Assembly: GCF_003234085.1 (NCBI RefSeq)
Contig: NZ_QKSD01000012.1
Coordinates: forward strand, 62,001-126,000
Direction: 5' to 3'
Length of the DNA: 64,000 bases
Origin: Curtobacterium sp. MCPF17_052
GTDB taxonomy: Bacteria; Actinomycetota; Actinomycetes; Actinomycetales; Microbacteriaceae
In this document: piece by piece, positions 17,714 through 23,304 of the stretch
Numbering within the stretch: position 1 is the stretch's first letter
Layout: each line of letters starts with the position of its first letter
The notes under the pieces: generated by a model
The model's database searches: none
Seen by the model: the letters and a program-made list of their open reading frames with translations, nothing else
Told to the model about the DNA's origin: nothing
Translations under genes and position numbers: made by a program

Positions 17714-18739
17714 TCAGGCCAGCGCGTCGAGCAGCGCCCTGGCCGTCGCCGCGTCCGTGACCAGCTCGTTGACCAGACGGCCGCGCACGGCGCTGATGAT
17801 GCTCGGCACCTTGACCGCACCGACGGCGACGCCGACCGCGTGGGGCACGGCGGCGAGCACCTCGCGAGAGGTCCGCACCATCCGGTCGCTGCCGGGGAAC
17901 TCGATGGGCTCACCGTCCGGGCCGGTGAAGTTGAGGCAGACGTCGCCGGTCGCCCGGTCGAACACGTCGTCGTCGACCGGCAGCCCGCGGGCCATCGCGT
18001 CCCGCGTCACGACCGGCGCGCCGATCCCCAGGATCGCGCCCTTCGCTCGGCTCCACAGCCCGACGACGTGCTGGAACGCGGGGTCCTCGTCCAGGGAGGC
18101 CCGGAGCGCCTCCGACGGCAGGGCCTGCGCGAACAGGAACGTCGGGATCGCACCGGACCGCTCCGCGGCCGCGCGGGTGATCTCGTTCGTCTGGAACCAC
18201 TGGTTCGGGTCGGCCTGACCGCCGACGGTCGGGACGAGTTGCACGCCCGGCATCGCCGGCATCGCTCCGTGCGCGATCGCGTGCACGGTGCTGCCGGACG
18301 ACATCAGCACGGCGTCGCCCGGGGCCAGGCGCATCCCCTCGACGGCGGCGGCGACCGGTTCGGCGAGGTCCACGCCCAGGGTCGCGGTGTGCGTGACGGC
18401 GGCGAGGTGCACGGCCTGGAGCCCGAGCACCACCTGCAGTCGCTCGGCCAGGGCGACGGTCTCGTCCTGGAACGGGTCGACGACCTCGATCCGGACCAGG
18501 CCGGATCGGCGGGCCTCGGACACGAGCCGACTCACCGTGGGGCGGGACACCCCGAGACGCGTGGCGATCTCGTTCTGCGTGGCGTCCTCGAGGTAGTACA
18601 TCCGCGCGGCCTGGTAGACCGTGTCGAGCGGGAACCGGGACCGCTGGCCCTCGGGTGCGGGCGTCGCCGACCCGGGCCGGTCCGGGCTGACCGGAGTGGG
18701 AACGGACGGCACCGATGCGGACGGGGTTCTGTCGGACAT
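17714..18739 (-). CDS. SorC-family sugar-binding regulator of the polyol cluster
   Basis: 341 residues. The helix-turn-helix is QNEIATRLGVSRPTVSRLV near residues 54-72, after a 35-residue proline/serine-rich N-terminal tail. The SorC sugar-phosphate domain follows (DAVLMSSGSTVHAIAH, LVPTVGGQADPNQW, ILGIGAPVV). It lies 70 bases downstream of the SDR gene on the same strand, so the two probably form one transcript that is divergent from the transporter-kinase-isomerase operon. The likely effector is a phosphorylated ketose made by that pathway. GGGAGG precedes the ATG at 18739. Confidence 0.9.
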   Translation of the reverse strand: MSDRTPSASVPSVPTPVSPDRPGSATPAPEGQRSRFPLDTVYQAARMYYLEDATQNEIATRLGVSRPTVSRLVSEARRSGLVRIEVVDPFQDETVALAERLQVVLGLQAVHLAAVTHTATLGVDLAEPVAAAVEGMRLAPGDAVLMSSGSTVHAIAHGAMPAMPGVQLVPTVGGQADPNQWFQTNEITRAAAERSGAIPTFLFAQALPSEALRASLDEDPAFQHVVGLWSRAKGAILGIGAPVVTRDAMARGLPVDDDVFDRATGDVCLNFTGPDGEPIEFPGSDRMVRTSREVLAAVPHAVGVAVGAVKVPSIISAVRGRLVNELVTDAATARALLDALA

Positions 18740-18809
18740 CGAGCGCGGGCCTCCCGGGTGCGGTGCCGTCGGACGTGCGGACGGCACCGCGATCGTAACG
18801 CCGACCGCG

Positions 18810-21049: not shown

Positions 21050-22846
21050 ATGACCACGATCTGCGACGACCCCGAGGACTTCGCCGAGGACCAACTCAGG
21101 GGCTGGCTCGCCCTGTACGCCGACCGGGTGCGCGGGGTCACCGGCGGGGTGGTGACCCTGCCGACCGCCGACGCGTCACCGCAGGTCGCGGTCGTCGTGG
21201 GCGGAGGCTCGGGGCACTACCCGGCGTTCAGCGGGCTGGTCGGACCCGGGCTCGCGACCGGTGCCGTCGTCGGCAACGTGTTCACCTCGCCGTCCGCCGC
21301 GCAGGTGTACTCGGTCGCGAGGGCCGCCGACCAGGGCCGCGGGGTCGTGCTGTCCTTCGGCAACTACGCCGGAGACACGATGAACTTCGGGCTCGCTGCG
21401 GAGCGGCTCCGTGCGGCCGGCATCGACACCCGGATCGTCGTCGTCACCGACGACGTCGCCTCGGCCGACGAGGCCGACCGTCGCCGCGGCATCGCGGGCG
21501 ACTTCGCGGTGTTCAAGGCGATGGGTGCCGCCGCGGCCGAGGGCGCGTCCCTCGACGAGGTCGAGCGGATCGGTCGGCACGCGAACGGACGGACCCGCAC
21601 CATCGGGGTCGCCTTCTCCGGGTGCACCCTGCCGGGTTCGGACGGGCCGCTCTTCAACGTGCCGGCCGGACACCTCGGCCTCGGGCTCGGCATCCACGGC
21701 GAGCCGGGCATCCGGGACGTCCCGTTGCTCCCGGCACGAGCCCTGGCCGAGTTGCTCGTCGAGCGTCTGCTGGCGGAGTCCCCGCCCGACGCAGCGGTGC
21801 GTGACTCGACGGCGCCCCGTCGGGTCGCAGCCGTCCTGAACGGCCTGGGGGACACGAAGTACGAGGAGCTGTTCCTGCTGTGGGGCCGGATCGCTCCGCT
21901 GCTGACGGCCGCGGGGGTCGAGGTCGTCGAACCCGAGGTCGGCGAACTCGTGACGAGCCTGGACATGGGCGGCTGCTCGCTCACCCTGCAGTGGCTCGAC
22001 GACGAACTCGAGCGCCTCTGGCGAGCCGATGCCCACACGCCGGCGTACCGCAAGTCCGCCGCACCGGTCGCGGCACTGGTCCCGGCGGACGTCGCGACCG
22101 AGGCGGCGACCACCGCGTCCGTCGTCCCGGCCGCGACCCCGGCCTCCCGTCGAGCGGGCGAGGCAGCACGCGCCGCGGTCCGGGCGATGGACGGACTGCT
22201 CCGCGAGCAGGAACACGAACTGGGTCGCATCGACGCGGTGGCCGGTGACGGGGACCACGGACGCGGGATGGTGAAGGGCGTCGGCGCCGCTCGCCGGGCA
22301 GTCGAGGGCATCGACGGGTCCGCCGGGGTCGGCTTCCTGCTCGGACGCGCGGGAGAGGCCTGGGCGGCCGAGGCCGGCGGGACGTCCGGCGTCCTGTGGG
22401 GTGCGGCGCTCGAAGCGTTCGGCGCGTCGATCGGAGACGACGCCGACGAGGTCACCCCGCCGATGGTGGTCGCCGCCGCGGCGGCGTTCGCGGAGGCGAT
22501 CGTCCAGCTCGGGCGGGCGCAGCGCGGGGACAAGACGCTCCTCGACGCGCTGTTGCCGTTCGTCGACGCACTCGCCGAGGCGATCACGACCGGTCAGCCG
22601 CTCCCCGAGGCCTGGGCCACCGCCGCCGAGGTCGCCGTCCGGCAGGCAGAGGCGACCGCGGCGCTGACTCCGCGGGTCGGCCGGGCACGCCCGCTCGCCG
22701 AGAAGAGCCTCGGGACGCCGGACGCCGGCGCCGTCTCGATGGGGATGCTCCTCACCCGGATCGGCGAGGTCCTGGCCGGCCGTGACGAGCAGCCCGACAC
22801 CACCGGCAGCACCACCACCACCACGAACAGAGGAGTGCACGCATGA
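21050..22846 (+). CDS. Fused DhaK-DhaL ketose kinase (dihydroxyacetone/erythrulose kinase)
   Basis: 598 residues. Residues 1-340 are the DhaK domain: GGGSGHYPAF at 51-60 binds substrate, and His216 in GIHGEPGI forms the hemiaminal with the ketone. Residues 370-580 are the DhaL ATP domain: GDGDHGRGM near 399 supplies the Mg-ATP aspartates, then GGTSG and the GRAR segment. The fusion marks an ATP-dependent kinase rather than the phosphotransferase-linked DhaKLM. Neighbours suggest erythrulose as substrate rather than dihydroxyacetone. GAGGAGG precedes the ATG at 21050. The stop overlaps the next start by 4 bases. Confidence 0.92.
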   Translation: MTTICDDPEDFAEDQLRGWLALYADRVRGVTGGVVTLPTADASPQVAVVVGGGSGHYPAFSGLVGPGLATGAVVGNVFTSPSAAQVYSVARAADQGRGVVLSFGNYAGDTMNFGLAAERLRAAGIDTRIVVVTDDVASADEADRRRGIAGDFAVFKAMGAAAAEGASLDEVERIGRHANGRTRTIGVAFSGCTLPGSDGPLFNVPAGHLGLGLGIHGEPGIRDVPLLPARALAELLVERLLAESPPDAAVRDSTAPRRVAAVLNGLGDTKYEELFLLWGRIAPLLTAAGVEVVEPEVGELVTSLDMGGCSLTLQWLDDELERLWRADAHTPAYRKSAAPVAALVPADVATEAATTASVVPAATPASRRAGEAARAAVRAMDGLLREQEHELGRIDAVAGDGDHGRGMVKGVGAARRAVEGIDGSAGVGFLLGRAGEAWAAEAGGTSGVLWGAALEAFGASIGDDADEVTPPMVVAAAAAFAEAIVQLGRAQRGDKTLLDALLPFVDALAEAITTGQPLPEAWATAAEVAVRQAEATAALTPRVGRARPLAEKSLGTPDAGAVSMGMLLTRIGEVLAGRDEQPDTTGSTTTTTNRGVHA

Positions 22847-23304
22847 CGTTCCGCATCGCGATCGGGTCCGACGACGCGGGCTTCACCCTGAAGGAGGTGC
22901 TGCGCGCCGACCTCGCCGCCGACCCGCGCGTCGCCGAGCTCACCGATGTCGGGGTCGACGCCGACGGCCACACCGCGTACCCGCACGTCGCCGTCGAGGC
23001 GGCCCGCCTCGTCGCCGCGGGTCATGCCGACCGGGCCCTGCTGGTCTGCGGCACGGGTCTCGGCGTGGCGATCAGCGCGAACAAGGTGCCGGGCATCCGA
23101 GCCGTCACCGCACACGACCCGTTCAGCGTCGAGCGCTCGGTGCTGTCCAACGACGCCCAGGTGCTCTGCCTCGGGCAACGTGTGATCGGGTCCGAACTCG
23201 CCCGACGCCTGGTCCGGGAGTGGCTCGGGTACACGTTCGACCCCACCTCGGCGAGCGCCGGGAAGGTCGACGCGATCCGGTCCTACGAGCGCGCGGACGA
23301 CTGA
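22843..23304 (+). CDS. RpiB/LacAB-family sugar-phosphate isomerase (DerI-like)
   Basis: 153 residues. RpiB-type enzymes interconvert aldose and ketose phosphates; the catalytic cysteine is in LLVCGTGLGVAISANK near residue 66. The usual opening DHAG reads GSDDAGFTLK here, and HTAYPHVAVEAA follows; both recall the D-erythrulose-4-phosphate isomerases (DerI) of mycobacterial threitol use more than ribose-5-phosphate isomerase B. It would turn erythrulose 4-phosphate into erythrose 4-phosphate, an entry to the pentose phosphate pathway. ATGA overlap with the kinase shows coupling. The exact substrate is inference. Confidence 0.88.
   Translation: MTFRIAIGSDDAGFTLKEVLRADLAADPRVAELTDVGVDADGHTAYPHVAVEAARLVAAGHADRALLVCGTGLGVAISANKVPGIRAVTAHDPFSVERSVLSNDAQVLCLGQRVIGSELARRLVREWLGYTFDPTSASAGKVDAIRSYERADD

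Follow-up and report, generated by a model that had tools for sequence, protein, structure and literature searches.

Catabolism of tetritols has been characterized in few organisms. The closest described system is the D-threitol pathway DthD-DerK-DerI of Mycolicibacterium smegmatis, reportedly described by Huang et al. in 2015 (JACS). The erythritol route of Brucella and rhizobia (EryABCD, TpiB, RpiB) likewise ends in D-erythrose 4-phosphate via an RpiB-type step, whereas it differs in that a kinase first acts on erythritol itself and further isomerases are needed (PMC3599248, in the parts available). In an Escherichia coli tktAB deletion strain, LerI and DerI together with EltD and LerK allow the use of L-threitol or erythritol instead of erythrose 4-phosphate supplements (available text of PMC10733421). 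Here we describe a cluster of five genes in Curtobacterium sp. MCPF17_052, located within a stretch of 64,000 nucleotides (contig NZ_QKSD01000012.1, positions 62,001 to 126,000), hereafter the window, from whose first letter all positions are counted. The cluster probably serves the inducible breakdown of a four-carbon polyol of the D series, with D-threitol as the most likely substrate. The direct basis for this reading is which genes are present, the families they belong to, their catalytic motifs, their conservation and their positions in trees, from which we infer the substrate, the reaction directions, transport, regulation and each catalytic step.

Gene content and relation to the mycobacterial pathway

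The cluster has two divergent arms, as proposed in the preliminary description of this DNA: every gene was found at its proposed position, and the families were confirmed by profile scores. The leftward arm (minus strand) encodes (i) a DthD-like polyol dehydrogenase of the short-chain dehydrogenase/reductase (SDR) family (18810..19634), matching NF005309 'GolD/DthD family dehydrogenase', a model that spans GolD as well and not DthD alone, with 332.4 bits (cut-off 286), and (ii) a SorC-family regulator (17714..18736; 340 amino acids from the ATG at 18736, longest open reading frame 17714-18850), which matches a helix-turn-helix and the Pfam Sugar-bind model of the SorC C-terminal domain (90.3 bits, cut-off 27). 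The rightward arm (plus strand) encodes (iii) an RbtT/DalT/CsbX-type polyol transporter of the major facilitator superfamily (MFS; 19684..20997; TIGR00897, 421.5 bits, cut-off 375), (iv) a fused DhaK-DhaL kinase, a candidate D-erythrulose kinase (21050..22846; NF011049 'dihydroxyacetone kinase family protein', 700.2 bits, cut-off 492), and (v) an RpiB-type isomerase, a candidate D-erythrulose 4-phosphate isomerase (22843..23304; TIGR02133 'RPI_actino', 198.4 bits, cut-off 168.2). The genes of the last two overlap by ATGA. The kinase motifs NYAGD, GIHGEPG and GDGDHG are all intact; the isomerase carries CGTGLG and, as had been claimed, GSDDAG in place of DHAG.

In the predicted pathway, the MFS transporter would import D-threitol, the SDR would oxidize it to D-erythrulose, the fused kinase would use ATP to form D-erythrulose 4-phosphate, and the RpiB-like isomerase would convert the latter to D-erythrose 4-phosphate. 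SorC would sense a sugar or sugar phosphate of the pathway and control both arms.

At the level of enzyme class, the three enzymes and their predicted chemistry are like those of the DthD-DerK-DerI pathway of M. smegmatis; the pathway itself is thus already known, and the variation lies in the transporter. No protein named for M. smegmatis appears in the best 120 matches of any of three kinase searches, nor does this species appear among the 80 loci of the SDR search described below. The preliminary description had presented both the SorC regulator and the MFS transporter as departures from that pathway. The former view fails, since SorC proteins 43-45% identical to that of the window stand beside kinase clusters in five Mycobacterium loci (L093, L095, L098, L099, L300), and two of these, L093 and L095, combine SorC, SDR, DhaKL and isomerase as in the window. 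The latter holds against the same five loci, although MFS-containing clusters recur elsewhere. In the window, the RbtT/DalT-type transporter replaces the ATP-binding cassette (ABC) transporters of the Mycobacterium type, the arms diverge around a short gap, and both the zinc dehydrogenase and the LerI-like gene are absent from the cluster; the order in L093 is SorC, zinc dehydrogenase, MalEFGK-type ABC transporter, DhaKL, isomerase, RbsABC-type ABC transporter and SDR. L093 was assigned to the genus Mycobacterium since a search of the genus to which M. asiaticum belongs matched this very locus.

In Gluconacetobacter takamatsuzukensis, a cluster (L171) spanning no more than 6 kb brings together these five classes as well (SorC-like, RpiB-like, DhaKL, MFS, SDR), with MFS (TIGR00897, 514 bits) and SDR (NF005309, 341 bits) both above the cut-offs. 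Its gene order differs, and its identity to the window is 27% for SorC, 35% for the kinase, 40% for the MFS transporter, 50% for the isomerase and 53% for the SDR. Providencia vermicola has a similar set plus a zinc dehydrogenase, its MFS transporter being recognized by 34% identity alone. Among the papers listed by literature searches that covered few subscription journals, none describes the MFS-containing arrangement. A likeness to the golD locus of Listeria is presumed.

Evidence from the dehydrogenase, kinase and isomerase

The SDR of the window, placed in a rapidly built tree with 67 members, falls within a set of 30 rows made up exclusively of DthD-like SDRs (Shimodaira-Hasegawa-like approximate likelihood ratio, SH-aLRT, 97); no row linked to a triosephosphate isomerase (TPI) is among them, and the SDR of Arthrobacter locus L177 lies outside, grouping with Pseudomonas. 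Since the SDR both passes the GolD/DthD model and groups with SDRs encoded beside DhaKL kinases, it argues for D-threitol. So do the binding proteins from two clusters that combine an SDR of this kind with such a kinase; the best match of these binding proteins is PDB 4rsm, which we take to be the D-threitol-binding protein of M. smegmatis: that of L093 matches with 642.6 bits over 325 residues and that of L114, a locus whose kinase is identical to a Nonomuraea glycinis protein, with 495 bits.

The company of the SDR genes points the same way. Five SDRs (four from kinase-neighbor loci plus that of the window) served as seeds for a further search. Among the matches listed, which cover 80 loci, a DhaK-type kinase is present in 24 of the 28 loci whose SDR is at least 45% identical to that of the window and in 1 of the 52 others, a contrast that favors the D-threitol reading, although seeds picked beside kinases bias the list towards kinase neighbors and the 45% threshold was set after the fact. 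Despite this bias, the spread across several phyla speaks for a functional link between SDR and kinase. Nine alphaproteobacterial-type loci (L153, L156-L158, L160, L162, L163, L166, L170) encode a DthD-like SDR as well as an ABC transporter and give matches to DhaK-type kinases, and no RpiB-like gene was detected within these stretches; the final step may there be encoded elsewhere or be different. In a Nonomuraea-type locus (L112:13091-18501), GlpD-like, FGGY-like and TPI-like genes lie divergently beside a DthD-type cluster, a set that presumably recalls the erythritol-kinase route of Brucella.

The kinase distinguishes two putative routes through erythrulose. We built a midpoint-rooted tree of 70 kinases whose coverage exceeds 80%, including the window and 7 of the 43 orthologous Curtobacterium loci described below; characterized DerK and LerK are absent from it, most split proteobacterial kinases fall outside owing to the coverage filter, and L152 was removed as a copy of L115. 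A TPI-like (LerI-like) gene was defined by at least 40% identity to a partial reference from L112 and a distance of at most 7.5 kb from the kinase. All 29 TPI-linked kinases fall in a single clade of 39 (support 98/98), which excludes the window, and none of the 31 kinases outside this clade has such a gene within 7.5 kb. The kinase of the window pairs (100/99) with that of Arthrobacter L177, a neighbor of a DthD-like SDR and an RbsABC-type transporter. A further clade of 13 kinases unites the DthD-linked Mycobacterium loci (L093, L095, L298, L299) with Nonomuraea-type loci (L112-L115); the tree does not settle its relation to the TPI-linked clade. In our reading, TPI-linked kinases would make L-erythrulose 1-phosphate, so that LerI is needed, and the other kinases would make D-erythrulose 4-phosphate directly. 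The direct route suits the window, because its kinase is outside the TPI-linked clade and no TPI-like gene occurs in any of the 43 orthologous loci. The motif GGGSGHYP is present in 96 of the 97 kinases at least 46% identical to that of the window in which it was readable (6 more were unreadable), and the other DhaK of the genome has GGGSGHEP; since proteobacterial DthD-linked kinases also have HEP, the motif marks a clade and not a proven specificity.

The isomerase appears to be a dedicated paralogue, judging by its Cys and DDAG motifs, by its position next to the kinase and by its retention with the kinase in 43 of 43 loci. A second RpiB elsewhere in the genome (L262) has DHAG and GGSGNGE, and a second DhaK lies on another contig, where adjoining DhaL-like, DhaM-like and divergent GlpF-like genes were recognized by eye. 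The kinase and isomerase of the cluster are therefore extra copies, and their dedicated character argues for D-threitol. A housekeeping RpiB identity for the cluster isomerase was rejected on account of the DHAG copy elsewhere. The fetched loci gave 107 RpiB-like proteins, many of them near-copies and at least one (L155) from a locus in which no kinase was detected; none of the 107 has the His of DHAG, and all have the Cys of CGTG. As a control, 60 Microbacteriaceae genomes were searched for the family, giving 30 loci with sequence: the 14 canonical RpiB proteins all have DHAG and none has a kinase within 1.5 kb, whereas the 16 window-like proteins all lack DHAG and 15 stand beside a kinase. 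The nearest solved structures, PDB 3qd5 and 3sdw (204 bits), both carry DDAG and CGTGLG and are named ribose-5-phosphate isomerase; the true substrate of these proteins may be a tetrulose phosphate.

Conservation within the genus shows which parts of the cluster are kept together. Among 66 Curtobacterium genomes searched, a kinase match at E <= 1e-110 was found in 60, and 44, including the source genome, have one with at least 74% identity; the loci of all 43 others in the latter group were fetched and scanned as orthologous loci, three stretches (L139, L279, L281) stopping at a contig edge just beyond the kinase. The window itself is placed in this genus by its kinase, which is 96% identical to one of Curtobacterium sp. 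MCBD17_030. The kinase and the isomerase are present in all 43 loci, SorC in 39, the MFS transporter in 36 (in L132 with just 38% of the length matched), the SDR in 32 and a zinc dehydrogenase, sitting mostly between SDR and MFS, in 32. As all five window genes occur together in 30 of the 43 loci and kinase and isomerase in every one, the grouping is beyond chance. Kinase and isomerase form the constant part, and dehydrogenases and transporters vary: L134 and L295 are without the MFS transporter, and L141 has ABC genes and neither MFS nor SDR. Other fused Curtobacterium kinases, approximately 52-54% identical to that of the window and with a TPI-like gene near (L142, L144-L150), belong to probable L-erythrulose-type clusters, to judge from these neighbors; several Curtobacterium genomes have three fused kinases each.

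The preliminary proposal of a D-threitol-type route via D-erythrulose is thus supported by the NCBIfam model, by both trees (kinase and SDR), by the absence of a LerI-like gene and by the genes that accompany homologous SDRs, and loses the supposed novelty of SorC. Several observations weigh against it. The isomerase misses the rhizobial D-erythrulose-4-phosphate isomerase (DerI) model NF051858 (149.1 bits versus 240), as do those of Mycobacterium L093 (150 bits) and Arthrobacter L177 (137.5 bits). Of the 28 loci above the 45% SDR threshold, no more than 16 show an RpiB-like gene. In the kinase tree, the DthD-linked kinases L128 and L161 fall inside the TPI-linked clade, a limit of 10 kb gives a TPI-like gene to L104 and L112, both outside this clade, and the relation of the window clade to the 13 Mycobacterium and Nonomuraea kinases is not settled; identity to the window kinase separates little as well (53-59% for these 13, 45-55% for the clade of 39). 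In five Curtobacterium loci (L271, L273, L276, L278, L292), SorC stands beside the MFS gene with no SDR between. Finally, L123 combines an MFS transporter 63% identical to that of the window with a zinc dehydrogenase, a 38% identical SDR and a kinase of the TPI-linked clade; hence the transporter does not prove D-threitol and may serve several tetritols.

Alternative substrates

Among the alternatives, a pentitol cluster survives best, although we consider it improbable: the MFS transporter and SDR would handle D-arabitol, xylitol or ribitol, and the kinase and the RpiB-type enzyme would act on a pentulose and a pentose phosphate, respectively. The models matched are named for ribitol and D-arabitol transporters and for ribose 5-phosphate isomerase, the SDR model includes GolD, and FGGY-like genes (27-31% identical to the reference) occur in 23 of the 43 Curtobacterium stretches. 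Against this, no FGGY-like gene was detected in positions 12001-29000 around the cluster, the kinase-linked isomerases lack the His of DHAG, and DhaK-type kinases act on short ketoses.

A triose cluster, in which glycerol or compounds like 1,2-propanediol would be oxidized by the SDR and dihydroxyacetone phosphorylated by the kinase, is suggested by the kinase family and again by the inclusion of GolD in the SDR model. We rejected it as quite unlikely: the kinase does not reach the glycerone (dihydroxyacetone) kinase equivalog TIGR02361 (340.3 bits, cut-off 574.95), the genome already has the other DhaK with its DhaL-, DhaM- and GlpF-like genes, and an RpiB-type isomerase, kept in 43 of 43 loci, would be needless for a triose route.

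Least probable of all, by a small step, is a route from erythritol or L-threitol via L-erythrulose, which we likewise rejected: the zinc dehydrogenase of 32 orthologous loci speaks for it, its L093 homologue (362-367 amino acids, depending on the start chosen) being close in length to the erythritol/L-threitol dehydrogenase A0QXD8 of M. smegmatis (printed as both 362 and 368 in the accessible part of PMC12542623), whereas this gene is absent from the window and from six further loci whose stretches show the cluster in full (L132, L133, L134, L265, L295, L296), the locus has no TPI-like gene, a single TPI was found in the genome, and the TPI-linked clade does not include the kinase. Since the assembly is estimated to be 76.6% complete, absences elsewhere in the genome are weak evidence.

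Regulation, genomic context and possible tetrose use

Both promoters and a SorC site would be expected in the 49 bases between the annotated starts (19635..19683). No sigma-70 consensus was found in this stretch, and neither the two promoters nor a SorC site was identified there. The annotated SDR start may be too early and the divergent gap longer than 49 bases, because four homologous SDRs start 18-22 residues later in an alignment of the N-termini. Among the matches listed, loci that carry the zinc dehydrogenase differ in their divergent regions from those that lack it, and we therefore claim no SorC site. A TGT-CTGGACA...TGTACAGTC-like stretch is conserved upstream of the zinc dehydrogenase (L135-L140, L266-L270, L282-L294) and, among the same matches, has no counterpart in the window; it is possibly a regulator site of the zinc-dehydrogenase-type Curtobacterium loci.

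Directly downstream of the cluster, 23429-25503 encodes an ABC ATPase and a protein that weakly matches LolA (28.6 bits, cut-off 23.6); many of the orthologous loci likewise show such ATPase matches on their downstream side. To the left of the cluster, at 13383-16281, another regulator of the SorC family (193 bits to Sugar-bind) is divergent from a GlpD-like dehydrogenase dependent on flavin adenine dinucleotide (281 bits, under the GlpD cut-off of 360); a GlpD-like gene is also present in 8 of the 43 orthologous stretches. Farther away, 44856-56173 encodes an ALO-type oxidase, L-arabinose isomerase, FGGY kinase, GH127 beta-L-arabinofuranosidase and ABC ATPase in one group, a probable L-arabinoside utilization cluster.

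Curtobacterium strains have been isolated on tetroses, and one of them, Ery-28b, can live on D-erythrose and scarcely on L-erythrulose; its transporters and kinases are, in the words of the authors, unknown (available text of PMC12780249). We tentatively propose, while thinking it rather unlikely, that the locus is the tetrose and tetritol entry of Curtobacterium, in which the MFS transporter would import both C4 polyols and sugars, and a constant core of kinase and isomerase, joined by interchangeable dehydrogenases and transporters, would channel D-erythrulose from several sources, including isomerized D-erythrose. As D-erythrose and D-erythrulose are an aldose-ketose pair, one isomerase would let D-erythrose feed the cluster. 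The nearest relative listed is Curtobacterium citreum, and a kinase that bears its name (P0078) shares 74% identity with that of the window. Against this proposal, the same paper, in the parts available, reports significant C4-ketose consumption only with Paraburkholderia Eru-33a, and its authors presume that their strains do not use D-erythrulose. If true, the proposal would explain the growth of Curtobacterium sp. Ery-28b on D-erythrose.

For the enzyme families, the missing His of DHAG with the Cys of CGTG, and the TPI-like gene beside one kinase clade, are marks that could help to correct names like ribose-5-phosphate isomerase and dihydroxyacetone kinase across many genomes. The combination of an RbtT/DalT-type secondary transporter with this enzyme set, found in Curtobacterium and Gluconacetobacter, makes a compact module suited to growth tests with C4 polyols and perhaps with tetroses derived from formose.

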